Assembly (NCBI RefSeq): GCF_007858475.1
Contig: NZ_VIGX01000003.1
Span: 342,252-406,251 of the forward strand
Length of the DNA: 64,000 nt
Source of the DNA: Tsukamurella conjunctivitidis
Lineage (GTDB): Bacteria > Actinomycetota > Actinomycetes > Mycobacteriales > Mycobacteriaceae
Direction of reading: 5' to 3'
In this document: positions 27,088 through 58,645 of the stretch, piece after piece
Numbering within the stretch: the stretch's first letter is position 1
Layout: the number at the start of each line of letters is the position of its first letter
The notes under the pieces: generated by a model
Database searches by the model: none
What the model saw: only the letters and a program-made list of their open reading frames with translations
What the model was told of the DNA's origin: nothing
Position numbers and translations under genes: made by a program

Positions 27088-27699
27088 TCATCCCACGGCG
27101 TCGCGCGTCGGGACCGGGTGTCGGCCGGTCGCGATCAGCACGATGGTGAGTGTCGGGAGCGGGACATCTGTGGGGCCGTCACCGAGGACGAGATCGGAGT
27201 CGTCCGCCGTGAGCCGCAGCCCGTCGAGGTCGACGCCGAAGAAGGCGAGCCCCTCGGGAGTCGACCCGGCGACCGTCGCCGCGAGGACCTCGGGCGCGGG
27301 CCCGGGCAGGCCGAGCGGGAGGGTGATGTCGAGGCCGTGGATCACCTCGTGCGCGAGGGCGCCCTGTGTCGCGCCGGGCCCGGGGGTCCACCGGCTCGCG
27401 ACCCGGGCCTTCTGGATCGCCAGCAGCTCGGCGTCGGTGTACCGCGCGACGTCGGCGCGGGCGGTGCGGTCGACGGCGACGTTCACGTCGCCGCCCGCAG
27501 CGGCGAGCGCCGCCCCGAACTCCTCCTGGGTCTGGGTGTCGGTCATGTTCAGGTGAGCGACCACCTCGCGGATGCGCCAGCCGGCGCAGAGCGAGTCGGC
27601 GGCCCATTGCGCTGGTGCGAGGCCGCCGAGCAGCGCGGCCATCCGGGTGCGCTCGGCGACGGTGGCGTCGTACAGATCGGTGTCGGTGAGGACGGTCAT
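27088..27699 (-). CDS. Maleylpyruvate isomerase / DinB-like mycothiol-dependent enzyme
   Basis: A 203-residue protein of the actinobacterial 'maleylpyruvate isomerase family mycothiol-dependent enzyme' group (DinB-like four-helix bundle). The N-terminal helix RTRMAALLGGLAPAQWAADS is followed by CAGWRIREVVAHLNM, which carries the first metal His, and later HEVIHGLDITLPLGLP supplies further His ligands. Such proteins usually bind a divalent metal and may transfer mycothiol; the reaction here is unknown. AGGAGA six bases before the ATG supports the start. It lies upstream of the SigG-like gene. Confidence 0.78.
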   Translation of the reverse strand: MTVLTDTDLYDATVAERTRMAALLGGLAPAQWAADSLCAGWRIREVVAHLNMTDTQTQEEFGAALAAAGGDVNVAVDRTARADVARYTDAELLAIQKARVASRWTPGPGATQGALAHEVIHGLDITLPLGLPGPAPEVLAATVAGSTPEGLAFFGVDLDGLRLTADDSDLVLGDGPTDVPLPTLTIVLIATGRHPVPTRDAVG

Positions 27700-27804
27700 G
27701 ATGGTCTCCTGTGCTCTGGTCGGTCGTCACAGGTGCATACGAGCGGGACCGCCGGAATTCGTCGCGCGAGCGACTCGTCGTGGTCCGGGCCTATCCTGGG
27801 AGTC

Positions 27805-28419
27805 ATGGCGAACGACTTCACCCGCTTCGCGGCGGTGGCGGCCAAGCTCGCACGCGAGCACGGCCCGCGACTCGCGGCGCAGGTCGTGAACAGCCCTCCG
27901 GTCCGTGCGGGCCGCGAGGCGATCACCCAGGTGGTCACGCAGACGGTGAACCAGGCGCTCGGCCTGGAGGCACCGTCGGAGCCCAAGGAGTTCACGCCCG
28001 GCAGGCCCGTGACCCGCACCTCCACACCCACGGCGCTCATGGCGCGCGGCGTCTTCTACGCCCCGCAGCTCGACGGCCAGGCCGACCCGGGGGAGATCGT
28101 CTGGACCTGGGTGGAGTTCGAGGAGACGACGGGGCCGAACGCGGGCCAGGGCAAGGACCGACCGGTGCTGGTCGTCGGGCGGTCGGTGAACAGCCTGCTC
28201 GGGCTGATGCTGTCCAGCCAGGAGCGGCACATGGGCGATCCGGACTGGGTCGGCATCGGCTCGGGGCCGTGGGACGCCGATCAGCGCCCCTCGTGGGTGC
28301 GGCTCGATCGGGTGCTCGACGTGCCGGAGGACGGGATCCGTCGCGAGGGTGCCGTCCTGGACCGCCGGCGTTTCGAGTCTGTCGCACAGCGCCTGCGGGA
28401 CGATTACGGCTGGACCTGA
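27805..28419 (+). CDS. PemK/MazF-fold protein without an antitoxin
   Basis: A 204-residue protein whose residues about 95-200 resemble PemK/MazF ribonuclease toxins: GEIVWTWVEFEE followed by GKDRPVLVVGRS, then a WVRLDRVLDVPED segment and the final helix DRRRFESVAQRLRDDYGW. An extra helical N-terminal domain of about 85 residues (FTRFAAVAAKLAREHGPRLA) is unlike classical short toxins of 110-120 aa. No antitoxin gene overlaps it, so it may be a housekeeping member of the fold. The position near lepA is like Rv2405 in M. tuberculosis. The start is supported by TATCCT at 27792-27797, 7 nt upstream (leaderless pattern). Confidence 0.65.
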   Translation: MANDFTRFAAVAAKLAREHGPRLAAQVVNSPPVRAGREAITQVVTQTVNQALGLEAPSEPKEFTPGRPVTRTSTPTALMARGVFYAPQLDGQADPGEIVWTWVEFEETTGPNAGQGKDRPVLVVGRSVNSLLGLMLSSQERHMGDPDWVGIGSGPWDADQRPSWVRLDRVLDVPEDGIRREGAVLDRRRFESVAQRLRDDYGWT

Positions 28420-46535: not shown

Positions 46536-47810
46536 TTACCGGGGCCGGACGTGCCCGTCGCCCCACGCGATCCACTTGGTGGAGGTGAGCTCCGGCAGAC
46601 CCATCGGGCCGCGCGCGTGCAGCTTCTGCGTGGAGATGCCGATCTCGGCGCCGAAGCCGAACTGCTCCCCGTCGGTGAAGGCGGTGGAGGCGTTGACCAT
46701 GACGGCGGCGGCGTCGACGCGGGTGGTGAACGCGCGGGCGGCGGCGAGATCACCGGTGATGATGGCCTCGGTGTGCCCGGTGCCGTACCGGTCGATGTGC
46801 TCGATCGCGGCGTCGATCCCGTCGACCAGCTTCACGGCGACGTCGAGGCTGAGGTACTCATCGGCCCAGTCCTCCTCGGTGGCGGGCACCATCGACGCCT
46901 CGTCGCCGTGCACGATCACGCCCTCGGCCTGGAAGGTGCTCAGCAGGCGGGGCAGGAAGGTGTCGGCGAGCGCGCGGTCCACGAGGACGGTCTCGACGGT
47001 GTTGCACACACTGGGGCGTCGGGTCTTGGCGTTGACCACGATCTCCTCGGCCATGTCGAGGTCGGCCGCGGGGTGGACGTAGATGTGGCAGTTGCCCGTA
47101 CCGGTCTCGATGGTGGGCACCGTCGCGTCGCGCACGACCGCCGCGATCAGCCCCGCACCGCCGCGCGGGATCACCACGTCGACGAGGCCGCGGGCGCGGA
47201 TCAGCGCGGTGACGCTGGCCCGGGACTCGGCAGGGAGCAGCGCGACGGCGTCGGGCGTGATGCCGCTCGCCTCCAGGGACTCGCGCAGGACGGTCACCAG
47301 GGCCGCGTTCGACGAGGCCGCCGAGCTGGAGCCGCGCAGCAGCACCGCGTTACCGGACTTGAGCGTGAGACCGAAGGCGTCGACGGTGACGTTCGGCCGC
47401 GCCTCGTAGACGATGCCGACGACGCCGAGCGGCACGGCGACCTGTCGGAGCTCGAGACCGTTGGGCAGCGTGGATCCGCGCAGCACGGTCCCGATCGGGT
47501 CCGGCAGGCCGGCGACCTGACGCAGGCCGGAGGCGATGCCGTCGACGCGGGCGGCGTTGAGGGCGAGCCGGTCGATCAGCGATTCCTCGGTGCCGGTGGC
47601 ACGCGCCCGCTCGACGTCCTCCGCGTTGGCCGCGAGGATGCGATCCTTCGCCGCGAGCAGCGCGTCGGCGGCGGCGTGCAGCGCCGTGTTCTTCTGCTCC
47701 GTGGTCAGCGTGATCAGCTGCTTCGACGCGGCGCGGGCGGCGCGGGCCGCCTCCTCGACCGCGACGGTCGCGGTCTGCAGGTCGGCGTCCTGGGCGGTGG
47801 GCGTGCTCAT
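46536..47810 (-). CDS. proA: Gamma-glutamyl phosphate reductase
   Basis: A 424-residue NADPH-dependent enzyme of proline biosynthesis that reduces gamma-glutamyl phosphate to glutamate semialdehyde. The catalytic Cys is in [18 protein letters not shown] near residue 265. Family regions [40 protein letters not shown] and [20 protein letters not shown] are present, with the C-terminal TEQFGFG-like [20 protein letters not shown]. The ATG at 47810 has TATTCT at 47817-47822, 6 nt upstream. The proB gene is not in the window. Confidence 0.95.
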
Positions 47811-47816
47811 GATCCG

Positions 47817-47859
47817 AGAATACGCGGCGGCCGGAATCGTCGGTGCGCGGTGCTACGTT
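47817..47859. promoter_or_regulatory. Overlapping divergent leaderless promoters for proA and the HNH nuclease
   Basis: The starts of proA (47810, leftward) and the nuclease (47866, rightward) are 55 bp apart. On the complement TATTCT (47822-47817) is 6 nt from the proA ATG; on the plus strand TACGTT (47854-47859) is 6 nt from the nuclease GTG. The expected -35 regions (about 47831-47845) overlap, so the two promoters would compete for polymerase. No good -35 consensus is visible for either. Confidence 0.5.
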
Positions 47860-47865
47860 GCGCTC

Positions 47866-48597
47866 GTGTCCCGCCGGAGGAGTGTCCGCAGCCTGTCCCG
47901 GCAGGCGTGGGTCTCGTTGATCCTCGTGGTCGCGACGGCGGTCTTCGTGGCCGTCGGCGTCCTCCGCGATCGGTCGGCCGGGGACCCCTCCCCCGGTCCC
48001 GCCTCACCGTCCGGGACCGTGTCCGACGGTGCGCCGCTCGCGGGAGTCCGGATCGTCGCCGCGCGCGAACGCGCCCCGCAGCCCTACCGCCGGGCCGCCT
48101 TCGGGAAGGCGTGGACCGATGACCAATCGGCCCCGCTCGGGCACAACGGCTGCGACACCCGCAACGACGTGCTGGACCGGGACCTGAAGAACAAGACGTA
48201 CGTGCGCACGTCGGGCTGCCCGAGCGCCGTGGCGACGGGCACCCTCGTCGATCCGTACAGCGGGACCACGATGCGCTTCGAGCGCGGTGCGAAGACCTCG
48301 GCCAAGGTCCAGATCGATCACGTGATCGCGCTCGCCTACGCGTGGGACATGGGCGCCTGGTCGTGGGACGACGCGAAGCGCACCGTCTTCGCCAACGATC
48401 CGCGGAACCTGGTCGCGGTCGACGGCCCGGCCAACGAGAACAAGCGCGACTCTCCCCCGGGCCGGTGGATGCCGGCCAACGGGCGCTTCCACTGCCAGTA
48501 CGCGCGCCAGTTCTCCTTCATCGCCCGCGAGTACGGCCTGTCGGTCGACCGCGCTTCGTCGGCCGTCATCGAGCAGGCCGGCCGGACCTGCTCCTGA
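47866..48597 (+). CDS. Exported HNH/DUF1524-type nuclease
   Basis: A 243-residue protein with a basic N-terminus, one membrane helix or uncleaved signal (AWVSLILVVATAVFVAVGVL) and a Ser/Pro-rich linker, so the domain lies outside the membrane. The C-terminal half has the DUF1524-like HNH core: QIDHVIALAYAWDMGAW, then NDPRNLVAVDGPANENKRDS and the final PPGRWMPANGRFHC. The His and Asn residues would bind one metal and cut nucleic acid. Cysteines at GHNGCDTRN and TSGCPS could form a disulfide outside. It could serve nutrient DNA degradation, or processing of DNA for the Com proteins; this is speculation. The GTG start has TACGTT 6 nt upstream. Confidence 0.82.
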   Translation: MSRRRSVRSLSRQAWVSLILVVATAVFVAVGVLRDRSAGDPSPGPASPSGTVSDGAPLAGVRIVAARERAPQPYRRAAFGKAWTDDQSAPLGHNGCDTRNDVLDRDLKNKTYVRTSGCPSAVATGTLVDPYSGTTMRFERGAKTSAKVQIDHVIALAYAWDMGAWSWDDAKRTVFANDPRNLVAVDGPANENKRDSPPGRWMPANGRFHCQYARQFSFIAREYGLSVDRASSAVIEQAGRTCS

Positions 48598-48645: not shown

Positions 48646-48690
48646 AAACAAGCATTGCTGCTTGTTTTTTTCGTCCGGGGCTGACAGAGT
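48646..48690 (+). promoter_or_regulatory. Promoter and palindromic TetR-type operator of the AtuA-like operon
   Basis: A perfect palindrome with 9-bp arms, AAACAAGCA (48646-48654) and TGCTTGTTT (48659-48667), is centred on TTGC. Its right arm contains TTGTTT (48662-48667), a good -35 box. Seventeen bases later comes CAGAGT (48685-48690), a possible -10, which lies 6 nt before the GTG at 48697. A dimer bound to the palindrome would block this promoter. The operon ends with a TetR gene, the obvious candidate repressor. A T-run (48665-48671) after the hairpin means that a terminator for the upstream nuclease gene is an alternative or additional role. Confidence 0.65.
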
Positions 48691-48696
48691 GTGCGC

Positions 48697-49473
48697 GTGC
48701 CCACTTCAGCCCCCGTGTTCGACGCGCTCGAGTCCACCTCGGCCGCCGTCGCCGCCATCGCGGATTCGCTCCCCGACTGGTCGATTCCCACGCCCGCCGA
48801 GGGCTGGACCGTCGCCCACCAGGTCGCCCACCTGGCCTGGACCGACGAGGTCTCGCTGGTCTCCGCCACCGATCCCGACGGCTTCGCCGCGATCCTCAAG
48901 GACGCGATGCAGGACCCGATGGGCTTCGTCGACGCCGGCGCCGCCGAGCTCGCCGCCGACCCCGACCTGCGCGCCCGCTGGGACCGCGCCCGCGCCGCCC
49001 TCGCCGCCGCGCTCCGCGAGGCCGATCCCGGCACGCCGCTCCCCTGGTTCGGCCCGCCCATGCGGCCCGCCACCATGGCCAACGCCCGCCTCATGGAGAC
49101 CTGGGCCCACGGCTTGGACATCGCCGACGCCGCCGGCACCGAGCTGGACACCCCCGAGGCGCTCCCCCACGTCGCGAAGATCGCGTACAAGACCCGCGAC
49201 TTCGCGTACACCGTGAACGGCGAGACGCCGCCCGCCGAGCCCTTCGACGTCTTCCTCGTGGCCGCCGACGGCTCCGAGGTCTGCTTCGGCCCCGGCGACG
49301 CCGCGCAGCACGTGAACGGCTCGCTCGAGGACTTCTGCCGCCTCGCGACCCAGCGCATCAACGTCGCCGACACCGACCTCGTCGCCACCGGCGCCGACGC
49401 CGCCCACTGGCTGACCATCGCGCAGTGCTTCGCCGGCGCCCCCGGCACCGGCCGCGCCCCTACCTCGACCTAG
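48697..49473 (+). CDS. TIGR03084 family metal-binding, mycothiol-type enzyme
   Basis: A 258-residue protein of the DinB-like/maleylpyruvate isomerase superfamily, TIGR03084 subgroup. The metal site is recognisable in TVAHQVAHLAWTDEVSL near residue 33 and MANARLMETWAHGLDIADA near 130, where His, Glu and Asp residues line up as expected. Members are found at the head of AtuA-containing operons in actinobacteria; the reaction is not known to me. The GTG at 48697 is preferred to the GTG at 48691 because of the promoter spacing. The AtuA-like gene follows after 12 bp. Confidence 0.78.
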   Translation: MPTSAPVFDALESTSAAVAAIADSLPDWSIPTPAEGWTVAHQVAHLAWTDEVSLVSATDPDGFAAILKDAMQDPMGFVDAGAAELAADPDLRARWDRARAALAAALREADPGTPLPWFGPPMRPATMANARLMETWAHGLDIADAAGTELDTPEALPHVAKIAYKTRDFAYTVNGETPPAEPFDVFLVAADGSEVCFGPGDAAQHVNGSLEDFCRLATQRINVADTDLVATGADAAHWLTIAQCFAGAPGTGRAPTST

Positions 49474-49485
49474 GAGGCATCTGAC

Positions 49486-51225
49486 ATGACCAGCCCCATC
49501 CGGATCGCCAACATCTCCGGCTTCTACGGCGACCGCGCCGCCGCGCTCGGCGAGATGCTCGCCGGCCCGCGCGTCGACTACATCACCGGGGACTACCTCG
49601 CCGAACTCACCATGCTCATCCTCGGTCGCGACCGGCTCAAGGACGCGGACCTGGGATACGCCAAGACCTTCCTGCGGCACCTGACCCCGCACCTGCAGAC
49701 ACTCGCCGAGCGCGGCACCAAGGTCGTCGTCAACGCCGGCGGCCTCAATCCGGGCGGCCTCGCCGCCGCGGTCGAGAAGGCCGTCGCAGAGTCCGGCACC
49801 GACCTCAAGGTCGGCTGGGTCGACGGTGACGATCTGCTCGCCCGGTCCGCCGACCTCGGCGTGCCGAACGCGGTGACCGCCAACGCCTATCTCGGCGCCT
49901 TCGGTATCGCCGACTGCCTCACCGCGGGCGCCGACATCGTCATCACCGGCCGCGTCACCGACGCCTCCGTCATCCTCGGCCCCGCGATCGCCGAGTTCGG
50001 CTGGCAGCGGACCGACTTCGACGCGCTGGCCGGCGCGGTCGCCGCGGGACACATCATCGAGTGCGGCACCCAGGCCACCGGCGGCAACTACGCCTTCTTC
50101 GACCGCCACCCCATCACGCAGCTCCTCCACCCCGGCTTCCCCATCGCCGAGATCGCCTCCGACGGCTCCTTCGCCATCACCAAGCAGCCCGGCACCGGCG
50201 GCGTGGTGGAGGTCGGCACCGTCACCGCCCAGCTGCTCTACGAGGTCACCGGCCAGCGGTACGCGAACCCCGACGTCACGCTGCTGCTCGATTCGATGAC
50301 CCTGGCCCAGGACGGCGCCGATCGCGTGACCGTCACCGGGGTCCGCGGCGAGGCACCGTCGGCCATGACCAAAGTGGCGACGACGACCCTGGGCGGGTTC
50401 CGCAACGAGATCGCCTTCCTGCTCACCGGCATCGACGTCGAGCGCAAGGCAGAGCTGCTCGAGGCACAGCTGCGGGATGCGCTGAACCCGGCGCCGTCGG
50501 GCCTGCAGTTCCGGCTCGCGCGCACCGACCACCCCGACGCCCCCACCGAGGCGGCGGCGTCCGCCACCCTCACCGCGGTGGCCTGGGACGCCGACCCGAA
50601 CCGCGTGGGCCGCGCGTTCAGTTCGGCCGCGGTCGAGCTGGCGCTCGCCACCTACCCCGGTGCCTCCCCGATGGCGCCGCCCTCGAGCGGCGGCCCGTAC
50701 GGCGTGTACCAGGCCGTCTACGTGCCCAACGAGGACGTGCCCCACCGCTCGCACCGGCCCGACGGCACCGTCGCCGACATCGCGCCGCCGGCCGTCACCC
50801 AGGACCTCCCCGTGGACCCGTCGCAGCCCGGCACCGCGCCGCAGGTCTCCGCCGGCCCCGGAGCGACCGCCCGCGTGCCGCTCGGCACCGTCTTCGGTGC
50901 GCGCAGCGGCGACAAGGGCGGGAGCGCCAACGTCGGCGTCTGGGCGGAGTCCGACGAAGCCTACGAATGGCTCCGCAGTAACCTGACCGAACAGGCTCTG
51001 CGCGAACTCCTTCCGGAGGCGGCGGACCTCCCCGTCCGCCGGTACGAGCTGCCCAACCTCAAGGCCCTCAACTTCGTCATCGAGGACCTGCTCGGTAAGG
51101 GCGTCGCGCACGGCTACCGGTTCGACCCGCAGGCCAAGGGCGTCGGCGAGTGGCTCCGCGGCCGCTACGTCGACCTGCCCGTCGCCCTGCTGCCCGCCAG
51201 CCACACCACGAAGGAGATCGCATGA
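49486..51225 (+). CDS. AtuA-like protein (DUF1446 plus ferredoxin-fold domain)
   Basis: A 579-residue protein with an N-terminal acyclic-terpene-utilisation AtuA domain (DUF1446) at about residues 4-440: ANISGFYGDRAAALGEMLAG, VDYITGDYLAELTMLILGRD, VVNAGGLNPGGLAAAVEKAV and ITGRVTDASVILGPAIAEFG. A separate C-terminal domain from about 465 (LGTVFGARSGDKGGSANVGV ... RRYELPNLKALNFVIEDLLG) matches the AtuA-like ferredoxin-fold domain. AtuA is required for citronellol/geraniol breakdown in Pseudomonas, though its reaction is not settled. AGGAGG precedes the ATG, and the stop overlaps the next gene (ATGA). Confidence 0.87.
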   Translation: MTSPIRIANISGFYGDRAAALGEMLAGPRVDYITGDYLAELTMLILGRDRLKDADLGYAKTFLRHLTPHLQTLAERGTKVVVNAGGLNPGGLAAAVEKAVAESGTDLKVGWVDGDDLLARSADLGVPNAVTANAYLGAFGIADCLTAGADIVITGRVTDASVILGPAIAEFGWQRTDFDALAGAVAAGHIIECGTQATGGNYAFFDRHPITQLLHPGFPIAEIASDGSFAITKQPGTGGVVEVGTVTAQLLYEVTGQRYANPDVTLLLDSMTLAQDGADRVTVTGVRGEAPSAMTKVATTTLGGFRNEIAFLLTGIDVERKAELLEAQLRDALNPAPSGLQFRLARTDHPDAPTEAAASATLTAVAWDADPNRVGRAFSSAAVELALATYPGASPMAPPSSGGPYGVYQAVYVPNEDVPHRSHRPDGTVADIAPPAVTQDLPVDPSQPGTAPQVSAGPGATARVPLGTVFGARSGDKGGSANVGVWAESDEAYEWLRSNLTEQALRELLPEAADLPVRRYELPNLKALNFVIEDLLGKGVAHGYRFDPQAKGVGEWLRGRYVDLPVALLPASHTTKEIA

Positions 51226-52394
51226 CCGACCTGTGGGAGTCCGACGAGCGGCTCGCCCTGCGGAAGACGGTGACGGCGTTCACCGAACGCGAGATCCTGC
51301 CGTACCAGGACCAGTGGGAGGCGGAGGGCCTGCTCCCCCGCGAGCTGCACAAGAAGGCCGGCGACCTGGGCCTGCTCGGCGTCTCTTTCCCCGAGTCGGT
51401 CGGCGGCGGGGGCGGCGACCCCCGCGACGCGCTCGTCGTGTGCGAGGCGATGCACGAAGCCGGTGGCTCCGGCGGCCTGTTCGCGTCGCTGTTCACCTGC
51501 GGGATCTCCGTGCCGCACATCATCCTCGCGGGCACCGACGAGCAGAAGGCGAAGTGGGTCGCCCCCGTTCTCGCCGGCGAGAAGATCAGCTCGCTCGGCC
51601 TCACCGAGCCCGGCGGCGGCTCCGACCTGAGCCACCTCACCACCACGGCGCGCAAGGACGGCGATCACTACATCGTCAACGGCGCCAAGACGTTCATCAC
51701 CTCGGGCATCCGCGCCGACTGGGTGGTCACCGCGGTCCGCACCGGCGGTGAGGGAGCCGGCGGCATCAGCCTCCTCGTGATCCCCAAGGGCCTCGACGGT
51801 TTCGAGGTCAGCGCGCCCCTGAAGAAGATGGGCTGGCACGCCTCCGACACGGCCGAGCTCTCCTTCACCGACGTGCGTGTGCCGGCCGAGAACCTCATCG
51901 GCCCCGAGAACAGCGGCTTCCTCATGATCGGCGCCGCCTTCGTGACCGAGCGCCTCGCGCTCGCCGTCCAGGCCTACTCGCACGCCCAGCGCTGCCTCGA
52001 CCTCACCCTCGACTGGGTCCGCCAGCGCGAGACCTTCGGCAAGCCGCTGATCAAGCGGCAGGCGGTGCAGAACACCGTGACCGAGATGCGCCGCCGCACC
52101 GAAGTGGCACGCGTCTACAGCCGGCACGTGGCCGACCTCTACACGGAGGCCCTCGCCGCGGGCGGTCCGGCAGCGGCCGCGGAGCTCGTGCCCCAGGCCT
52201 GCTTCGCGAAGAACACCGCCGTCGAGTGCGGCGAGTGGGTCGCGAACGAGGCGGTGCAGCTGTTCGGCGGCCACGGATACATGTCCGAGTACGAGGTCTC
52301 GCGGCACTACCGCGATGTCCGCATCCTCGGCATCGGCGGCGGCACCACGCAGATCCTCACGACGCTCGCGGCGAACCGCCTCGGCTACAAGTGA
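51222..52394 (+). CDS. Acyl-CoA dehydrogenase, branched-chain type (first of two)
   Basis: A 390-residue FAD flavoprotein that introduces an alpha-beta double bond into an acyl-CoA. Family parts: SLGLTEPGGGSDLSHLTTTA near residue 128, NGAKTFITSGIRADWVVTA near 154, RQRETFGKPLIKRQAVQNTV near 263 and LFGGHGYMSEYEVSRHYRD near 350. The C-terminal loop reads GIGGGTTQIL and lacks the Glu used by medium-chain enzymes. Instead Glu243 in FVTERLALAVQ lies where isovaleryl-CoA dehydrogenase has its base. This suggests a branched substrate. It overlaps the AtuA-like gene by 4 bp. Confidence 0.9.
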   Translation: MTDLWESDERLALRKTVTAFTEREILPYQDQWEAEGLLPRELHKKAGDLGLLGVSFPESVGGGGGDPRDALVVCEAMHEAGGSGGLFASLFTCGISVPHIILAGTDEQKAKWVAPVLAGEKISSLGLTEPGGGSDLSHLTTTARKDGDHYIVNGAKTFITSGIRADWVVTAVRTGGEGAGGISLLVIPKGLDGFEVSAPLKKMGWHASDTAELSFTDVRVPAENLIGPENSGFLMIGAAFVTERLALAVQAYSHAQRCLDLTLDWVRQRETFGKPLIKRQAVQNTVTEMRRRTEVARVYSRHVADLYTEALAAGGPAAAAELVPQACFAKNTAVECGEWVANEAVQLFGGHGYMSEYEVSRHYRDVRILGIGGGTTQILTTLAANRLGYK

Positions 52395-52446
52395 TCCCCA
52401 CCCAGGCACCCACTCCGACACCGACGACAGGCAAAGGAACACACCC

Positions 52447-54036
52447 ATGACGGTGCTCCGCAGCACCCCGGCCCCCGACGCCGCCGCGTACCGCGAGACC
52501 ATGCTCGGCAAGCTCGCCGACCTCACCGCCGAGTTCGACAAGGCCCTGGCGGGCGGCGGCGAGAAGTACGTGGAGCGGCACCGGGGGCGCGGCAAGCTCA
52601 CGGCCCGGGAGCGCATCGACAGCGTGCTCGATCCGGCTTCCCCGTTCCTCGAGCTGATGCCGCTCGCGGCGTGGGGCAGCGACTTCCAGGTGGGCGCCTC
52701 CCTCGTCGGCGGCATCGGCGTGGTCGAGGGCGTCGAGGTGATGATCGTCGCGAACGACCCCACCGTCAAGGGCGGCACCTCGAACCCGTGGACCCTACGC
52801 AAGTCGCTGCGCCTCAACGACATCGCCAAGGAGAACCGGCTCCCGGTGCTCTCCCTGGTCGAGTCCGGCGGCGCCGACCTCCCCACACAGAAGGAGGTCT
52901 TCGTCCCCGGCGGCGCGATGTTCCGCAACCTGACGCAGCTGTCCAAGGCCGGTATCCCGACCATCTCGGTGGTCTACGGCAACTCCACCGCCGGCGGCGC
53001 GTACATCCCCGGCATGAGCGATCACGTGGTGATGATCAAGGAGCGCTCCAAGGTCTTCCTCGCCGGGCCGCCCCTGGTGAAGGCCGCGACGGGCGAGATC
53101 TCCGACGACGAGACGCTCGGCGGCGCCGAGATGCACTCCCGCACCTCGGGCCTCGGCGACTACATGGCCAACGACGAGCTCGATGCCGCACGGATCGCGC
53201 GCTCGATCGTCAAACGCCTCAATTGGCACAAGCAGGGCACGGCTCCGTCGAGCCTGGTCAAGCCCCCGCGCTACGACGCCGAGGGCCTGCTCGACATCGT
53301 CCCGGACGATCTGAAGATCCCGTTCGACCCGCGCGAGATCATCGCCCACATCGTGGACGACTCCGACTACGACGAGTTCAAGCCGCTCTACGGCGGCTCA
53401 CTGACCACCGGTTGGGCGAACCTGCACGGCTACCCGATCGGCATTCTCGCGAACGCGCGCGGCGTCCTCTTCTCCGAGGAAGCGCAGAAGGCCACGCAGT
53501 TCATCCAGCTGGCCAACCGCTACGACACGCCGCTGCTGTTCATCCACAACACCACCGGCTACATGGTGGGCGCCGAGTACGAGCGCGGCGGCATGATCAA
53601 GCACGGCTCGATGATGATCAACGCGGTCTCCAACTCGGAGGTGCCGCACCTCTCGCTGATCGCCGGCGCCTCGTACGGCGCGGGCCACTACGGCATGGCG
53701 GGCCGCGCCTTCAACCCGCGCTTCCTGTTCTCCTGGCCGAGTGCGCGTTCCGCGGTCATGGGCGCCAAGCAACTCGCCGACGTGGTCACCGAGGTCGCCG
53801 CCGCCTCGGCCGCCTCCCGCGGTCAGGCGATGGACCCCGCGTTCGTCGACGGCATGCGCACCGCGATCGAGACCCAGATCGACAAGGAGTCCCTGCCGGC
53901 CTTCATGTCCGGAATGCTCTACGACGACGGCATCATCGACCCCCGCGACACCCGCACGGTGCTCGGCATGGCGCTCTCCGCCATCCACAACGGCCCCGTC
54001 CACGGCACCGACGCCTTCGGCGTCTTCCGGATGTGA
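52447..54036 (+). CDS. Acyl-CoA carboxylase beta (carboxyltransferase) subunit, MCC/GCC type
   Basis: A 529-residue carboxyltransferase resembling the beta subunits of 3-methylcrotonyl-CoA and geranyl-CoA carboxylases. The N-terminal half binds the acyl-CoA (GRGKLTARERIDSVLDPASP, SGGADLPTQKEVFVPGGAMF, GNSTAGGAYIPGMSDHVVMI). The C-terminal half binds biotin (RGVLFSEEAQKATQFIQLAN, HNTTGYMVGAEYERGGMIKH, GASYGAGHYGMAGRAFNPRF). It works with the biotin subunit encoded next. A 52-bp gap precedes it. Whether the substrate is methylcrotonyl-CoA, geranyl-CoA or another beta-methyl enoyl-CoA cannot be read directly. Confidence 0.92.
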   Translation: MTVLRSTPAPDAAAYRETMLGKLADLTAEFDKALAGGGEKYVERHRGRGKLTARERIDSVLDPASPFLELMPLAAWGSDFQVGASLVGGIGVVEGVEVMIVANDPTVKGGTSNPWTLRKSLRLNDIAKENRLPVLSLVESGGADLPTQKEVFVPGGAMFRNLTQLSKAGIPTISVVYGNSTAGGAYIPGMSDHVVMIKERSKVFLAGPPLVKAATGEISDDETLGGAEMHSRTSGLGDYMANDELDAARIARSIVKRLNWHKQGTAPSSLVKPPRYDAEGLLDIVPDDLKIPFDPREIIAHIVDDSDYDEFKPLYGGSLTTGWANLHGYPIGILANARGVLFSEEAQKATQFIQLANRYDTPLLFIHNTTGYMVGAEYERGGMIKHGSMMINAVSNSEVPHLSLIAGASYGAGHYGMAGRAFNPRFLFSWPSARSAVMGAKQLADVVTEVAAASAASRGQAMDPAFVDGMRTAIETQIDKESLPAFMSGMLYDDGIIDPRDTRTVLGMALSAIHNGPVHGTDAFGVFRM

Positions 54037-54043
54037 GGAACCC

Positions 54044-55999
54044 ATGACGACATTCGATTCCGTCCTCGTCGCCAATCGCGGCGAGATCGCCCGCCGCGTC
54101 ATCGCCGCGGCGCACGCCCGCGGCCTGCGCGCCGTCGCGGTGTACTCCGACCCGGACGCCTCCGCGCCGCACGTCACGGAGGCCGACGAGGCCGTGCGCC
54201 TGCCCGGCGAGTCCCCCGCTGATACCTACCTGCAGGGCGAGAAGATCATCGCCGCGGCGAAGGCCACCGGCGCGCAGGCGATCCACCCCGGTTACGGCTT
54301 CCTCTCCGAGAACGCCGACTTCGCCGCCGCGGTCCACGCGGCCGGGCTCACCTGGATCGGTCCCTCCCCCGAGGCGATCACAGCGATGGGCTCCAAGGTC
54401 GCGGCGAAGGCGCGCCTCGCCGAGGCCGGTGTCCCGATGCTGACGAACCTCACGCCGGATCAGGTCTCCGACAGCGACTTCCCCGTGCTGGTGAAGGCCT
54501 CCGCAGGCGGCGGCGGTCGCGGCATGCGCGTGGTCCGCACCCGTGCGGAGCTGCAGGAGAATCTGGACGCCGCCGAGCGCGAGGCGAAGTCCGCCTTCGG
54601 CGACGGGACCGTCTTCTGCGAGCGCTACCTCGAGCGCGGCCGCCACATCGAGGTCCAGGTGATGGCCGACTCCCAGGGCACCGTCTGGGCCGTGGGCGAG
54701 CGCGAGTGCTCGATCCAGCGCCGCCACCAGAAGGTGCTCGAGGAGGCACCGTCGCCGCTCGTCGAGCGCCACCCGGCGATGCGGACCGCCCTGTACGAGG
54801 CGGCCGCCAACGCCGCCAAGGCCATCGGCTACACCGGCGCGGGCACCGTCGAATTCCTCGCGACGGACGCGGGCGAGTTCTTCTTCCTCGAGGTGAACAC
54901 GCGTCTGCAGGTGGAGCACCCGGTCACCGAGGCCACCACCGGCCTCGACCTCGTGGGCCTCCAGTTCGACGTGGCCGCCGGCCTTCCCCTGCCGTCGGCC
55001 GAGCCGCCCGCCACCCGCGGCTGGGCCATCGAGGCCCGCCTCTACGCGGAGGATCCGGCCAACGACTGGCGCCCGGCCGCCGGCACCGTGCACCGCTTCG
55101 AGGTCCCCGGCGTGGTCAGCGAGTTCTCCGGCCCGGATCGTCCCGGCATCCGGCTCGACAGCGCGCTGGCGCCCCGCGACAGCGTCGTGGAGGTCTTCTA
55201 CGACCCGATGCTGGCGAAGGTCATCGGCTACGCCCCGACTCGCGCGCAGGCCCTCGCGATCACCGAGGCCGCCCTGCGCAAGGCTGTGATCCACGGCCTC
55301 ACCACGAACCGCGACCTCCTCGTGCGCGTCCTCGCGGACGCGGACTTCAAGGCGGGCGACTTCGCGACGGACTTCCTCACCGGTGAGCGGCTCGAGCGGC
55401 TCGCGGCGCCGCTGCTGGGCGAGGACGAGCTCGCCGAGGCGGCAGCGGCCGCCGGGGCGGTGCTGGACCGCCGGGGTGCCGCCGCGAGCCCGCTGCCGCA
55501 CGTCGCACCCGGCTGGCGCAACCTCGGTTCCCGCACCCTGGTACCGGAGTTCCGCACCGCCGACGACCGCGACTTCCGAGCTGACGGCGGACGGGTCGCC
55601 GCCGTCACCGACGACGGGGAGCGCGCCACTGTCGCGGTCGAGCGCGACGGTGTCCGGCGCACCGTCGCCGTCACCGCCTACCCCGGTGACCAGACCGTGG
55701 TCGAGGTGGAGACCGCGCGGGGCGCGGCGACGCTGACGCTCGTGAACCCGCTGCCCTCGGCGGACGCCGCGGCCGCCGCGGGCTCGCTGCTCGCGCCGAT
55801 GCCCGGCGTGATCACCCGGATCGGCGCGCAGGCGGGCGATTCCGTCACCGCCGGTCAACCGGTGCTGTGGATGGAGGCCATGAAGATGGAGCACGCCATC
55901 TCCGCCCCCGCCGACGGCGTCATCGCCTCCATCCCGGTCGAGGTGGGCCAGAACATCGATGCCGGCGCGGTCGTCGCCGTGCTGGAAGAGACGGAGTAA
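54044..55999 (+). CDS. Acyl-CoA carboxylase alpha (biotin carboxylase/carrier) subunit
   Basis: A 651-residue subunit with biotin carboxylase at residues 1-450: SVLVANRGEIARRVIAAAH, AIHPGYGFLSENADFAAAV, the ATP loop VKASAGGGGRGMRVVRT, and FFLEVNTRLQVEHPVTEATT. A BT-like middle region follows, then the carrier domain with VLWMEAMKMEHAISAPADGV; the biotinylated Lys is near residue 613. It carboxylates its biotin with ATP and bicarbonate for the beta subunit. Seven bases separate it from the beta gene. The layout is that of MCC and GCC alpha subunits. Confidence 0.94.
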   Translation: MTTFDSVLVANRGEIARRVIAAAHARGLRAVAVYSDPDASAPHVTEADEAVRLPGESPADTYLQGEKIIAAAKATGAQAIHPGYGFLSENADFAAAVHAAGLTWIGPSPEAITAMGSKVAAKARLAEAGVPMLTNLTPDQVSDSDFPVLVKASAGGGGRGMRVVRTRAELQENLDAAEREAKSAFGDGTVFCERYLERGRHIEVQVMADSQGTVWAVGERECSIQRRHQKVLEEAPSPLVERHPAMRTALYEAAANAAKAIGYTGAGTVEFLATDAGEFFFLEVNTRLQVEHPVTEATTGLDLVGLQFDVAAGLPLPSAEPPATRGWAIEARLYAEDPANDWRPAAGTVHRFEVPGVVSEFSGPDRPGIRLDSALAPRDSVVEVFYDPMLAKVIGYAPTRAQALAITEAALRKAVIHGLTTNRDLLVRVLADADFKAGDFATDFLTGERLERLAAPLLGEDELAEAAAAAGAVLDRRGAAASPLPHVAPGWRNLGSRTLVPEFRTADDRDFRADGGRVAAVTDDGERATVAVERDGVRRTVAVTAYPGDQTVVEVETARGAATLTLVNPLPSADAAAAAGSLLAPMPGVITRIGAQAGDSVTAGQPVLWMEAMKMEHAISAPADGVIASIPVEVGQNIDAGAVVAVLEETE

Positions 56000-56005
56000 C
56001 AGGGA

Positions 56006-57187
56006 ATGAGCACCACGGAAGCCATTTCGATGGACGTCATCGAGTCCGACGAGCGCCAGGCGCTCCGCACGACGGTCTCGGATCTCGGTAAGCAGTTCGG
56101 CCCCGAGTACATGCGCGAGAAGATCGCGGCCGGCGAGGGCCCCACCGAGCTGTGGAAGGCCGCGGGCGATCTCGGCCTGATCGGCGTGAACATCGCCGAG
56201 CAGTACGGCGGCGGCGGCGCCGGGATGTACGAGCTGGGCATCGTCGGCGAGGAGCTGGCCGCGGTCGGTTCATCGCTGCTCATGCTGGTGGTCTCCCCCG
56301 CCATCAACGGCACCATCATCTCCAGGTTCGGCACGGAGGAGCAGAAGCAGCGCTGGTTGCCGGGCATCGCCTCGGGCGAGACGATCGCCGCCTTCGCGAT
56401 CACCGAGCCCGACGCGGGCAGTAACAGCCACCGCATCACCACCACCGCCCGGCGCGACGGCGACGACTGGATCATCTCCGGCCAGAAGACCTTCATCTCC
56501 GGCATCGAGCTGGCGGACGTGATCCTCGTGGTCTCGCGCAGCGAGGACGCCAAGACCGGCAAGCTGCGCCCCGCGCTCTTCCTCATGCCCACCGACTCGC
56601 CCGGCCTGCAGAAGACCAAGATCCCCATGGAGGTGGGCCTGCCGGAGTCGCAGTGGACGCTCTTCTTCGACGACGTCCGCCTGCCCGCCGAGGCGCTCGT
56701 CGGCGAGCCCGACGCCGCCATCGCGCAGCTCTTCGCCGGGCTCAACCCGGAGCGCATCATGGCCGCCGCCGGCTCGGTCGGCTCGGCCCGGTACGCGATC
56801 GACCGCGCGGTGGCGTACGCCAAGGAGCGCACCGTCTTCAAGGTCCCGATCGGCGCGCACCAGGCCATCGCCCACCCGCTCGCCGAGCTCAAGGTCGAGA
56901 CGGAGCTGGCGAAGCTCATGCTGCAGAAGGCGGCGACGCTCTACGACGCCGGCCAGGAGTTCGCCGCGGCCGAGGCAGCGAACATGGCGAAGTTCGCGGG
57001 CGGCGAGGCCGGCGCGAAGGCCGTCGACCGCGCGATCCACTCGCTCGGCGGCAACGGCCTCACCACCGAGTACGGCCTCGCACAGATGCTGGTCGCCTCG
57101 CGCCTGTTCCGCATCGCGCCGGTCAGCCGCGAGATGGTGCTCAACTTCATCTCCGAGCACTCGCTCGGTCTGCCCAAGAGCTACTAG
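56006..57187 (+). CDS. Acyl-CoA dehydrogenase (second of two)
   Basis: A 393-residue acyl-CoA dehydrogenase. Features: NIAEQYGGGGAGMYELGIVG near residue 56, FAITEPDAGSNSHRITTTAR near 131, SGQKTFISGIELADVILVV near 156 and HSLGGNGLTTEYGLAQMLVA near 348. As in the first dehydrogenase, the usual C-terminal Glu site is replaced (RIAPVSREMVLNF). Glu249 in LNPERIMAAAGSVG occupies the isovaleryl-CoA-dehydrogenase base position. Two such enzymes in one operon suggest either two successive oxidations or two chain lengths. It starts 6 bp after the biotin-subunit gene. Confidence 0.9.
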   Translation: MSTTEAISMDVIESDERQALRTTVSDLGKQFGPEYMREKIAAGEGPTELWKAAGDLGLIGVNIAEQYGGGGAGMYELGIVGEELAAVGSSLLMLVVSPAINGTIISRFGTEEQKQRWLPGIASGETIAAFAITEPDAGSNSHRITTTARRDGDDWIISGQKTFISGIELADVILVVSRSEDAKTGKLRPALFLMPTDSPGLQKTKIPMEVGLPESQWTLFFDDVRLPAEALVGEPDAAIAQLFAGLNPERIMAAAGSVGSARYAIDRAVAYAKERTVFKVPIGAHQAIAHPLAELKVETELAKLMLQKAATLYDAGQEFAAAEAANMAKFAGGEAGAKAVDRAIHSLGGNGLTTEYGLAQMLVASRLFRIAPVSREMVLNFISEHSLGLPKSY

Positions 57188-57195
57188 GAGTCCGC

Positions 57196-58020
57196 ATGAC
57201 CGAACCCCTGGTCCGGTACGACACCACGAACGGGGCCGCGTACCTCACGATCGACAGCCCGCACAACCGCAACGCGATCTCGCAGCGGCTCCTCGCCGAC
57301 CTGAGCGCCGGGCTGCAGCGGGCTGCCGCGGACGACGCCGCACGCGCCGTGGTGCTCACGCACACCGGCACCACCTTCTGCGCGGGTGCGGACCTCAAGG
57401 AGGCGGCGACCGGCGCCGGGAGCGGAGCGAGCGGGCCGAATGACTCTCGTTCCGGGGCCGGCTCGGACCCGAAGTCGCGCACCCTCGCCATGATCGGCGC
57501 GATGCGCGGCATCATCGAGTGCCCGAAGCCGGTGATCGCCCAGGTCGACGGCCACGTCCGGGCCGGCGGCTTCGGCCTCATCGGCTCCTGCGACTTCGTC
57601 TTCGCCGGTCCCGCCGCCTCCTTCGCCGTCACGGAAACGCGGATCGGCGTCGCGCCGGCGATGGTCTCGCTGGTACTGCTCCCGCACCTCCCGTCCCGGG
57701 TCGCCTCCACACTGCTGCTCACGGGCCGCAAGTTCGACGGTGCCGAGGCCGCCGGCTACGGCCTCATCACCGCGGCGGTGGACGACCCGGCGACCGCGGT
57801 CGCCGAGCAGCTCGCCGAGCTGCAGCTGTGCAGCCCGCAGGGCCTGCGGGAGACGAAACAGATCCTCTGGCACGATGTCCTGCGCTCCTTCGACGAGCGG
57901 GCGGACGCCCTCGGGGAGCAGTCGGCGCGATTGTTCGGCTCCCCCGAGTCCGTCGAGGGGATCACCGCGTTCCTGCAGAAGCGCGCGCCGAGCTGGGCCG
58001 AACCGGTACCGGCGGAATAG
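57196..58020 (+). CDS. Enoyl-CoA hydratase/isomerase family protein
   Basis: A 274-residue crotonase-fold protein, a candidate hydratase for the glutaconyl-type product of the carboxylase (LiuC or AtuE role). The CoA/oxyanion segments TFCAGADLKEAAT near residue 58 and RAGGFGLIGSCDFVFAGPAA near 121 are present. Glu147 in AVTETRIGVAP matches one catalytic Glu, but the other (GxExA position) is Gly127. A disordered Gly/Ser insert (about residues 73-94) follows the first motif and is encoded by a GAGCGGAGCGAGC-containing sequence. The ATG at 57196 lies 8 bp after the previous stop. Confidence 0.87.
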   Translation: MTEPLVRYDTTNGAAYLTIDSPHNRNAISQRLLADLSAGLQRAAADDAARAVVLTHTGTTFCAGADLKEAATGAGSGASGPNDSRSGAGSDPKSRTLAMIGAMRGIIECPKPVIAQVDGHVRAGGFGLIGSCDFVFAGPAASFAVTETRIGVAPAMVSLVLLPHLPSRVASTLLLTGRKFDGAEAAGYGLITAAVDDPATAVAEQLAELQLCSPQGLRETKQILWHDVLRSFDERADALGEQSARLFGSPESVEGITAFLQKRAPSWAEPVPAE

Positions 58021-58030
58021 GCTGCATTCG

Positions 58031-58645
58031 ATGACTCCCCTCCGCCCGCCCATTCGCGCACCCCAGCAGTCCCGCAGCCGGGAGACCCGGCAGCGGCTGC
58101 TGGAGACCACCATCGCCTCGCTGGCGGCCCGCGGCTGGACCGCGACCACCGTGGGCAGTGTGGCGCGGCAGGCGGGAGTCTCGCGCGGCGCCGCGCAGCA
58201 CCACTTCCCCACGCGGGAGGACCTGATCAGTGCCGCGCTGGAGTACATGGGCGAGCAACGGCTCGCGCAGGTCGCGCAGGCGGGCGCGGCGGTCCCCGAG
58301 GGTCCCGACCGCCCGTACGCGGTGGCGCGGCTGATCGTCGAGTACTACACCGACGACCTGTTCAAGGCGGCCCTGCACGTCTGGACCGCAGCGGCGAGCG
58401 ACGACGCGCTCCGCGAGCGGATGCTGCCCTTCGAGAACAAGCACTCCCGCGAGGTCTTCGCCCTCGCCATGCGGCTGCTCGGCGTGGACCGGGACGACGA
58501 CGAGGCGCGTAGGGCCGTGCAGGCCACGCTGGATCTGGCCCGCGGGCTGGGCCTGGCGGACCTGCTGTCCGACGACGAGGTGCGCCGCGAGCAGGTCGTC
58601 GAGTTCTGGGGCCGCCAGCTGGCGTCGGTGTTCGCAGCGCGCTGA
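58031..58645 (+). CDS. TetR family transcriptional regulator
   Basis: A 204-residue TetR repressor. The DNA-binding domain is at residues about 15-65: TRQRLLETTIASLAARGWTA then TVGSVARQAGVSRGAAQHHF, a clear helix-turn-helix, followed by PTREDLISAALEYMG. The C-terminal part is a helical ligand domain. It ends the AtuA-like operon but also has its own possible leaderless promoter: TAGGCT (58018-58023), made partly from the preceding stop codon, ends 7 nt before the ATG. It is the likely repressor at the palindrome at 48646-48667, with an acyl-CoA as inducer; both are inference. Confidence 0.9.
   Translation: MTPLRPPIRAPQQSRSRETRQRLLETTIASLAARGWTATTVGSVARQAGVSRGAAQHHFPTREDLISAALEYMGEQRLAQVAQAGAAVPEGPDRPYAVARLIVEYYTDDLFKAALHVWTAAASDDALRERMLPFENKHSREVFALAMRLLGVDRDDDEARRAVQATLDLARGLGLADLLSDDEVRREQVVEFWGRQLASVFAAR

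Follow-up and report, generated by a model that had tools for sequence, protein, structure and literature searches.

A 64,000-nucleotide stretch of the Tsukamurella conjunctivitidis genome (contig NZ_VIGX01000003.1, positions 342,252 to 406,251; hereafter the window) contains an operon of eight co-directional genes on the + strand (48691–58645). The genes encode, in order, a TIGR03084 family protein, an AtuA family protein, an acyl-CoA dehydrogenase (ACD1), the beta and alpha subunits of a carboxylase, a second acyl-CoA dehydrogenase (ACD2), a crotonase, and a TetR regulator. The operon is real, widespread, and seen before in mycobacteria. It is probably the orthologue of the mycobacterial accA2/accD2 operon and a self-contained catabolic module for beta-methyl-branched acyl-CoAs that exceed 3-methylcrotonyl-CoA in size.

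Carboxylase beta subunit

The best solved relative of the window beta subunit is that of Pseudomonas aeruginosa 3-methylcrotonyl-CoA carboxylase (MCC; 524.9 bits). The score is 473.5 bits to the beta subunit of geranyl-CoA carboxylase (GCC; PDB 5ikl) and 238 bits or less to classical chains of propionyl-CoA carboxylase (PCC; e.g., 1vrg and 1xnw). These scores, and its position apart from PCC-like paralogues, bear out the MCC/GCC-type assignment made in an earlier note on this DNA. PCC membership was rejected, as the genome's own PCC-like paralogues (outgroups that we ourselves designated PCC-like) lie across branches with support of 100/99 and 100/100. Chain 9tps, labelled PCC, scores 495 bits to the window beta subunit yet carries the MCC insertion described below, and its label therefore looks loose.

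In P. aeruginosa MCC, the beta-subunit residue Phe191 interferes sterically with the second isoprene unit of geranyl-CoA, and its GCC counterpart is Gly162. MCC has a three-residue insertion at the place of Phe191, and structure and mutants tie this position and insertion to pocket size (PMC4673880). The insertion with its Phe (Phe191 in P. aeruginosa, Phe157 in Mycobacterium tuberculosis AccD1) is missing from the window beta subunit, which has Gly155 at the position of GCC Gly162. Among 50 aligned beta subunits, those without the insertion have Gly (n = 41), Ala (n = 4), or Thr (n = 1) at this position. The insertion occurs with Phe in three (the genome's own accD1 twice and Azospirillum liu) and with Gly in one (Phaeobacter).

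Phylogenetic trees place these proteins apart from PCC and MCC. In a first tree of 44 rows, which omitted eight Tsukamurella or near loci (L080–L082 and L084–L088) and a duplicate L041 row, the window-type beta subunits from actinobacterial AtuA-linked loci grouped together (35 rows, support 85/81). They joined AtuC at 97/90, away from the liu/accD1 and PCC-like rows. A second tree, built with nine MCC/GCC references and 20 of the 43 beta subunits of window type, but without those of Rhodococcus L101 and Phaeobacter L104, recovered them as their own clade (20 rows, 99/96). Clustering of the window beta subunit with MCC beta subunits was not found in either tree. The phylogeny against MCC and GCC that the earlier note had proposed thus separates the protein from PCC-like rows and puts it in a clade of its own, neither MCC nor inside GCC. 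It shares with GCC the missing insertion and the Gly at position 162 but is only 43% identical to the Acinetobacter GCC relative. Judged from sequence, the window beta subunit is a member of the MCC/GCC superfamily that is neither PCC nor MCC, and it is GCC-like at the one position backed by mutants while lying outside GCC.

A separate leucine-type module

Another contig of the same genome (C221) contains a module with a SACE_7040-like TetR (below cut-off), beta and alpha subunits, an acyl-CoA dehydrogenase, a MaoC dehydratase, a CitE-like lyase, an acyl-CoA ligase, and an acetoacetate-CoA ligase. Its beta subunit is 46% identical to that of the window and carries the MCC signature REHF, which the window protein lacks. 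This leucine-type module ends in MaoC and the CitE-like lyase (G000:C221:430786-431628; L041:14287-15129), not in a 3-hydroxy-3-methylglutaryl-CoA (HMG-CoA) lyase. A Rhizobium plasmid (L108) is annotated with the same set, namely isovaleryl-CoA dehydrogenase (IVD), beta, alpha, MaoC, and CoA ester lyase. The window operon follows the dehydrogenase–carboxylase–hydratase logic of the liu and accD1-accA1 modules. Those modules differ in having the MCC insertion and Phe (Azospirillum liu and the own accD1 were inspected) and an HMG-CoA lyase or CitE gene beside them.

Distribution and the mycobacterial accA2/accD2 operon

When genome contigs were scanned, the window AtuA matched 13 loci; nine are from Tsukamurella (87–92% identity), each with all eight genes in the same arrangement. 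Identical gene content and order are annotated in NZ_LR134460.1, from T. tyrosinosolvens. AtuA relatives were identified in 70 of 148 class genomes (E ≤ 0.001) and in 53 of 296 phylum genomes (E ≤ 1e-40). Neighbors were compared at 38 non-own AtuA loci hand-picked from the class-genome matches, which are not a random sample, using the best tblastn label within 10 kb; a few labels are distant paralogues (e.g., two TetRs at 27%). Beta and alpha carboxylase genes occur near AtuA in 30 loci, 23 of which also have ACD2, a recurrence beyond coincidence. The remaining genes are present near AtuA in 23 (ACD2), 23 (crotonase), 21 (TetR), 19 (ACD1), and 18 (TIGR03084) of the 38. The carboxylase is missing in eight loci, two of which are contigs under 9 kb. 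Because the loci were chosen by AtuA, its constancy among them is uninformative. An acyl-CoA ligase lies within the gene row of L050, with homologues in five loci, and of the Rhodococcus locus L101. One contig titled Acidobacteriaceae bacterium (CAJCHX010000468.1, L086) has the first four operon genes at 71–89% identity and a one-mismatch copy of the palindrome described below, after which the contig ends; it may be a wrongly binned contig of actinobacterial origin or reflect a transfer.

In three Mycobacterium loci (L092, from M. montefiorense, L042, and L043), AtuA, an acyl-CoA dehydrogenase, beta, alpha, a second acyl-CoA dehydrogenase, and crotonase follow each other as in the window, and the L043 beta subunit groups with L092 at 100/99 in the second tree. 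On the far side of AtuA, L042 has a response regulator, a histidine kinase, an HtrA-like protease, a MoaB-like protein, and MscL, with homologues in L043, L089, and L092. These neighbors match the genes mprA, mprB, pepD, moaB2, and mscL (Rv0981 to Rv0985c). The M. tuberculosis operon Rv0971c–Rv0976c comprises echA7, fadE12, accA2, accD2, fadE13, and Rv0976c (PMC9283954), and supplement captions show Rv0976c to Rv0981 as one region, aligned with M. marinum and others (PMC1762029). On gene order and neighbors, the window operon appears to be the orthologue of Rv0971c–Rv0976c. The two share six genes in the same order, whereas TetR, TIGR03084, and the palindrome are all absent at the operon in L042, L043, L089, and L092. 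In four same-family genomes (G003, G049, G066, and G082), TIGR03084 is present elsewhere, away from the operon. The suggestion of the earlier note that this is an undescribed actinobacterial variant is too strong for what appears to be the widespread accA2/accD2 operon.

A 2015 study purified AccD2-AccA2 and knocked it out in M. smegmatis; the proteins form a complex to which no substrate was assigned, and its role was called an open question by the authors (PMC4347857). In the deletion mutant, the examined lipids and methylcrotonyl-CoA were unchanged, and growth on isovalerate was as in the wild type. The main text of that paper has no mention of geranyl or of terms beginning with terpen-. 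In M. tuberculosis, the operon was reported in 2022 to be induced 20–300-fold in hypoxia and stationary phase (PMC9283954).

Dehydrogenases, crotonase, and AtuA

Both dehydrogenases have the isovaleryl-type base described in the earlier note, as Glu at the IVD position (ACD1 E243 and ACD2 E249) occurs in 36 of 36 rows of each alignment, three of which are references. Neither has a catalytic Glu at the medium-chain acyl-CoA dehydrogenase position in these alignments. ACD1 is 43.5% identical to an acyl-CoA dehydrogenase beside the Acinetobacter atu operon and 32–33% identical to AtuD and LiuA, and the best solved relative of ACD2 scores only 182.5 bits. The crotonase alignment has a Glu164-type Glu in all 36 rows; at the Glu144 position, 34 of them have Gly, a residue also found there in Acinetobacter AtuE and Azospirillum LiuC. 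The fourth-ranked solved relative of the crotonase is 4zu2, a "putative isohexenylglutaconyl-CoA hydratase" (98.6 bits vs 242.9 for the first).

AtuA matches PF07287 at 489.6 bits (cut-off 22.8). Positions conserved in 95% or more of 56 aligned rows include D16, D36, E40, N83, H189, E192, C193, Q196, and N201, and the last five look like an active site. No solved structure matched AtuA by sequence (E up to 1), and none of the viral contigs was confirmed to have AtuA. No canonical HMG-CoA lyase was found in the T. conjunctivitidis genome (343 contigs, listed as 100% complete), where the best match scored 28 bits against a cut-off of 246. Since the genome has no classical lyase and the operon supplies the other steps, AtuA is by elimination the likeliest, putative, lyase, with the CitE-like protein as its main rival. 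One paper tentatively identifies AtuA as the lyase (PMC4847356), a role described elsewhere as "speculated" (PMC9973270), and the eight-gene set may therefore be complete without HMG-CoA lyase. A second AtuA (G000:C43:60190-61953; L040:9631-11469), 44–45% identical to the first, has a LysR regulator and a bile-acid-symporter-type transporter as neighbors and an MpaB/rubber-oxygenase-type gene nearby, with no carboxylase match in the 20 kb covered.

TIGR03084 protein

Residues H47, E136, H140, and D143 of the TIGR03084 protein are present in 30 of 30 rows, and nearby H43 in 22 of 30; the four invariant residues are predicted to be metal ligands. No solved structure matched the protein by sequence (E up to 0.1). 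In 42 of the 296 phylum genomes, TIGR03084 exceeded its cut-off. AtuA (E ≤ 1e-40) is present in 35 of these 42 genomes vs 18 of the 254 others, counts that are uncorrected for kinship. A search for conserved TIGR03084-AtuA neighborhoods showed that the two genes are linked, lying within 10 kb of each other in 25 of the 42 genomes and within 500 bp in 16.

The description as a mycothiol-type enzyme is supported by the MDMPI/DinB family assignment and the conserved His/Glu/His/Asp; mycothiol use itself is putative. MshC hits of about 313 bits or less were taken as CysS because the same model also responds to Escherichia coli and other controls; the MshC/CysS border is our own reading, and the MshC cut-off itself is passed by only 23 of the 296 genomes. 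Seven of the 42 TIGR03084 genomes, some of them drafts, have a single hit at this level, one (G261) has three, and the others score 365–738 bits. Mycothiol is here the name of a superfamily, and with a single CysS-level hit in seven genomes, dependence on it is conjectural. In one genome with only a low-level hit (G181, 94% complete), TIGR03084 is 15 bp from AtuA.

TetR regulator and palindrome

A palindrome upstream of the first gene is a candidate operator for the TetR regulator. The window has a single match to ACAAGCA-N4-TGCTTGT when up to two mismatches are allowed, compared with a shuffle mean of 0.02. With up to one mismatch the pattern occurs at one place in the whole genome, where the backward control pattern was found once per strand; because the control matched as often, the genome count indicates a single palindrome site and not enrichment. 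A perfect copy is present in all nine Tsukamurella loci. Across 43 loci, with L083 and L086 representing the Tsukamurella group, there were 12 copies (up to two mismatches) vs 0.6 expected from five shuffles per locus that moved pairs of bases, and all 12 lie 44–144 bp before the edge of a TIGR03084 or AtuA match. Of 21 loci whose TetR is more than 40% identical, 11 have a copy; among the 21 that lack such a TetR, one does (L086, on a contig cut off early), ignoring kinship. Copies track the TetR recognition helix, occurring in 10 of 13 loci with RGAxQHHF and one of eight with RGAQLHHF, also uncorrected for kinship. A CAAGC/GCTTG core is common to the palindrome and the published AtuR site (PMC9973270). 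The gap between atuR and atuA in Acinetobacter contains CAAGCGCTTGCTTG, again with this core, and the recognition helix of the Acinetobacter TetR differs.

The palindrome also scores as a weak terminator-like hairpin, with a 9-bp stem, a 4-base loop, and a T run, and could be merely the terminator of the upstream gene. With just three G-C pairs in the stem, a sequence kept in several families beyond what pairing would require, a consistent position before TIGR03084 or AtuA, and the association with the recognition helix, we consider this distinctly unlikely.

Operon layout and neighboring features

The gaps between the eight genes, using our start codons, are 12, −4, 52, 7, 6, 8, and 10 bp, including one 4-bp overlap; co-transcription is presumed. 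Together with Pfam and NCBIfam matches (Table 1), these gaps confirm the eight-gene same-strand set and named domains of the earlier note, including the TetR gene, and its logic of carboxylating a beta-methyl group is supported. As it also stated, no HMG-CoA lyase or short-chain dehydrogenase/reductase (SDR) is present among the eight proteins by Pfam or NCBIfam, and the same searches found no AtuB/AtuG-type dehydrogenases or AtuH-type ligase. The translated alpha subunit contains the biotinylation motif AMKM.

Table 1. Features of the operon and its proposed operator (window coordinates)
Feature	Position	Strand	Basis
Palindrome AAACAAGCA-TTGC-TGCTTGTTT, proposed TetR operator	48646..48667		ACAAGCA-N4-TGCTTGT pattern
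TIGR03084 family metal-binding protein (DinB/MDMPI superfamily)	48691..49473	+	TIGR03084 279 bits, cut-off 248
AtuA family protein; proposed 3-hydroxy-3-alkylglutaryl-CoA lyase	49486..51225	+	PF07287 E 1.1e-146 and AtuA ferredoxin-like domain
Acyl-CoA dehydrogenase 1 (ACD1), FadE13-like by position	51222..52394	+	Domain match; IVD-type base E243; 548 bits to PDB 3oib
Carboxyltransferase beta, AccD2-like by position	52447..54036	+	GCC-like pocket: no MCC insertion, Gly155 (codon 52909-52911)
Biotin carboxylase/biotin carrier alpha, AccA2-like by position	54044..55999	+	Biotin carboxylase and biotin-lipoyl domains
Acyl-CoA dehydrogenase 2 (ACD2), FadE12-like by position	56006..57187	+	Domain match; IVD-type base E249
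Crotonase/enoyl-CoA hydratase, EchA7-like by position	57196..58020	+	PRK07827 361 bits, cut-off 283
TetR family regulator, proposed operon repressor	58031..58645	+	PF00440

A gene upstream of the operon (47536–48597), also on the + strand, encodes a GmrSD C-terminal domain and is assigned to an HNH endonuclease family in T. tyrosinosolvens. In that species, recG follows the operon on the opposite strand. The record (NZ_LR134460.1, L102) is named "plasmid 18", but recG, nadD, and a glutamate-5-semialdehyde dehydrogenase gene surround the operon and it looks like chromosome. Elsewhere in the window, a longer reading frame at 27118–28419 contains a PemK/MazF-like domain. No known Rfam RNA was found in the window at gathering scores.

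Discussion

In the proposed pathway, one of the two dehydrogenases would make a 2,3-enoyl-CoA, the AccA2-AccD2-type carboxylase would carboxylate its gamma-methyl group, and the crotonase would hydrate the carboxylated product to a 3-hydroxy-3-alkylglutaryl-CoA. AtuA would cleave this to acetate (or acetyl-CoA) and a chain that can be beta-oxidized, and the TIGR03084 protein may assist through a metal-dependent reaction. The TetR regulator, encoded last, would repress the operon at the palindrome and be released by an acyl-CoA of the pathway.

Several observations weigh against this reading. With references added, the window-type beta subunits join GCC at 81/60 only and outside the AtuC clade. 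Because support fell from 97/90, the union with AtuC has to be taken at the lower value, and because the GCC grouping is weak, these proteins are a third clade whose substrate is not readable from the tree. Orthology with Rv0971c–Rv0976c, and hence with M. tuberculosis AccD2 and Rv0976c, is drawn from gene order and neighbors. In one review, fadE13 and accD2 are grouped under branched-chain keto and amino acid catabolism, and accA2/accD2 expression is given as increased in some dormancy models and decreased in others (PMC8044303). ACD2 is about 28% identical to AtuD or LiuA, the operon has no terpene alcohol dehydrogenase gene, and the palindrome (up to two mismatches) is absent from 10 of the 21 loci with a TetR more than 40% identical. 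For AtuA, homology to HMG-CoA lyase was rejected, if weakly, as comparison with a shallow profile (Neff 1.6) showed no similarity, and a review gives LiuE as the enzyme of the terpene lyase step (PMC4097962). HMG-CoA lyase scores over its cut-off in 101 of 148 class genomes, including operon-bearing G018, G073, G133, and G143, and AtuA is therefore not needed everywhere as its replacement.

The substrate could be smaller or of another kind than proposed. A second leucine/isovalerate (methylcrotonyl-CoA) pathway, redundant with accD1-accA1, would agree with P. aeruginosa MCC as the closest solved beta subunit, with a hydratase and dehydrogenases of IVD/methylglutaconyl type, and with the review listing of fadE13 and accD2 under branched-chain amino acid catabolism (PMC8044303). 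It is made improbable by the missing MCC insertion and Phe, by the accD1-type module with MaoC and CitE elsewhere in the genome, and by the M. smegmatis accD2-accA2 deletion, which showed no methylcrotonyl-CoA build-up and normal growth on isovalerate (PMC4347857). Leucine, considered in the earlier note, was rejected as the main role on these grounds. Utilization of true acyclic monoterpenes (citronellol/geraniol) as in Pseudomonas is unlikely, if less so. The Pseudomonas/Acinetobacter atu cluster resembles the operon in having AtuA, a carboxylase with the pocket Gly, an IVD-type dehydrogenase, a crotonase (AtuE, to which that of the window is distantly related), a TetR, and a CAAGC/GCTTG core shared by the Acinetobacter intergenic region and the published AtuR site (PMC9973270). 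It differs in that the window beta subunit lies outside the AtuC clade and the window operon has two dehydrogenases and TIGR03084 and no AtuB-type SDR, AtuG-, or AtuH-type genes. Identities are low (34% for AtuA with that of Acinetobacter and 28–32% for the dehydrogenases with AtuD), and the induction of the M. tuberculosis operon under hypoxia and in stationary phase (PMC9283954) does not point to a plant terpene. We tentatively allow for breakdown of other branched or 2-unsaturated acids, such as diffusible signal factor (DSF)-type fatty acids, pristane/phytol-type acids, or recycled polyprenyl chains. The atu-like genes dmgA-H of P. nitroreducens, 79–91% similar to Atu, act in DSF degradation (PMC9973270), and some relatives of the operon (L050 and L101) have an acyl-CoA ligase in the gene row.

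A different possibility concerns the last step and is the one we take most seriously, while still judging it short of even: AtuA would not be the lyase but would do something else, and the CitE-like lyase of C221, or another relative, would finish both modules. The CitE-like gene is present in the genome, the terpene lyase activity of Pseudomonas was assigned to LiuE (PMC4097962), and AtuA genes without a carboxylase exist, both on C43 and in the eight loci noted above. However, the CitE-like gene sits in the leucine-type module and, TIGR03084 aside, every enzyme-like protein of the operon other than AtuA already has its step.

Within the open-licence literature consulted, what is new is the move from an "unknown AccD2" to a putative GCC-like carboxylation module that is linked to AtuA, would act on larger branched acyl-CoAs, and has a TetR operator of its own. 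More speculatively, AccD2-AccA2-type enzymes might be a third class of beta-methyl acyl-CoA carboxylase across Actinomycetota, for large isoprenoid-like acyl-CoAs, and AtuA a new C-C lyase unrelated to HMG-CoA lyase and CitE, with an H-x2-E-C-x2-Q-x4-N center. Tsukamurella would then have two parallel pathways without classical HMG-CoA lyase, with MaoC and CitE for leucine and crotonase and AtuA here. The pocket position, the AtuA neighbor, and the separate clade indicate the first substrates to try for AccD2-AccA2, by which its open substrate question becomes a simple enzyme test and AtuA could also gain a tested function. Harmless actinobacteria that carry the complete operon are a place to study AccD2-AccA2-type enzymes.

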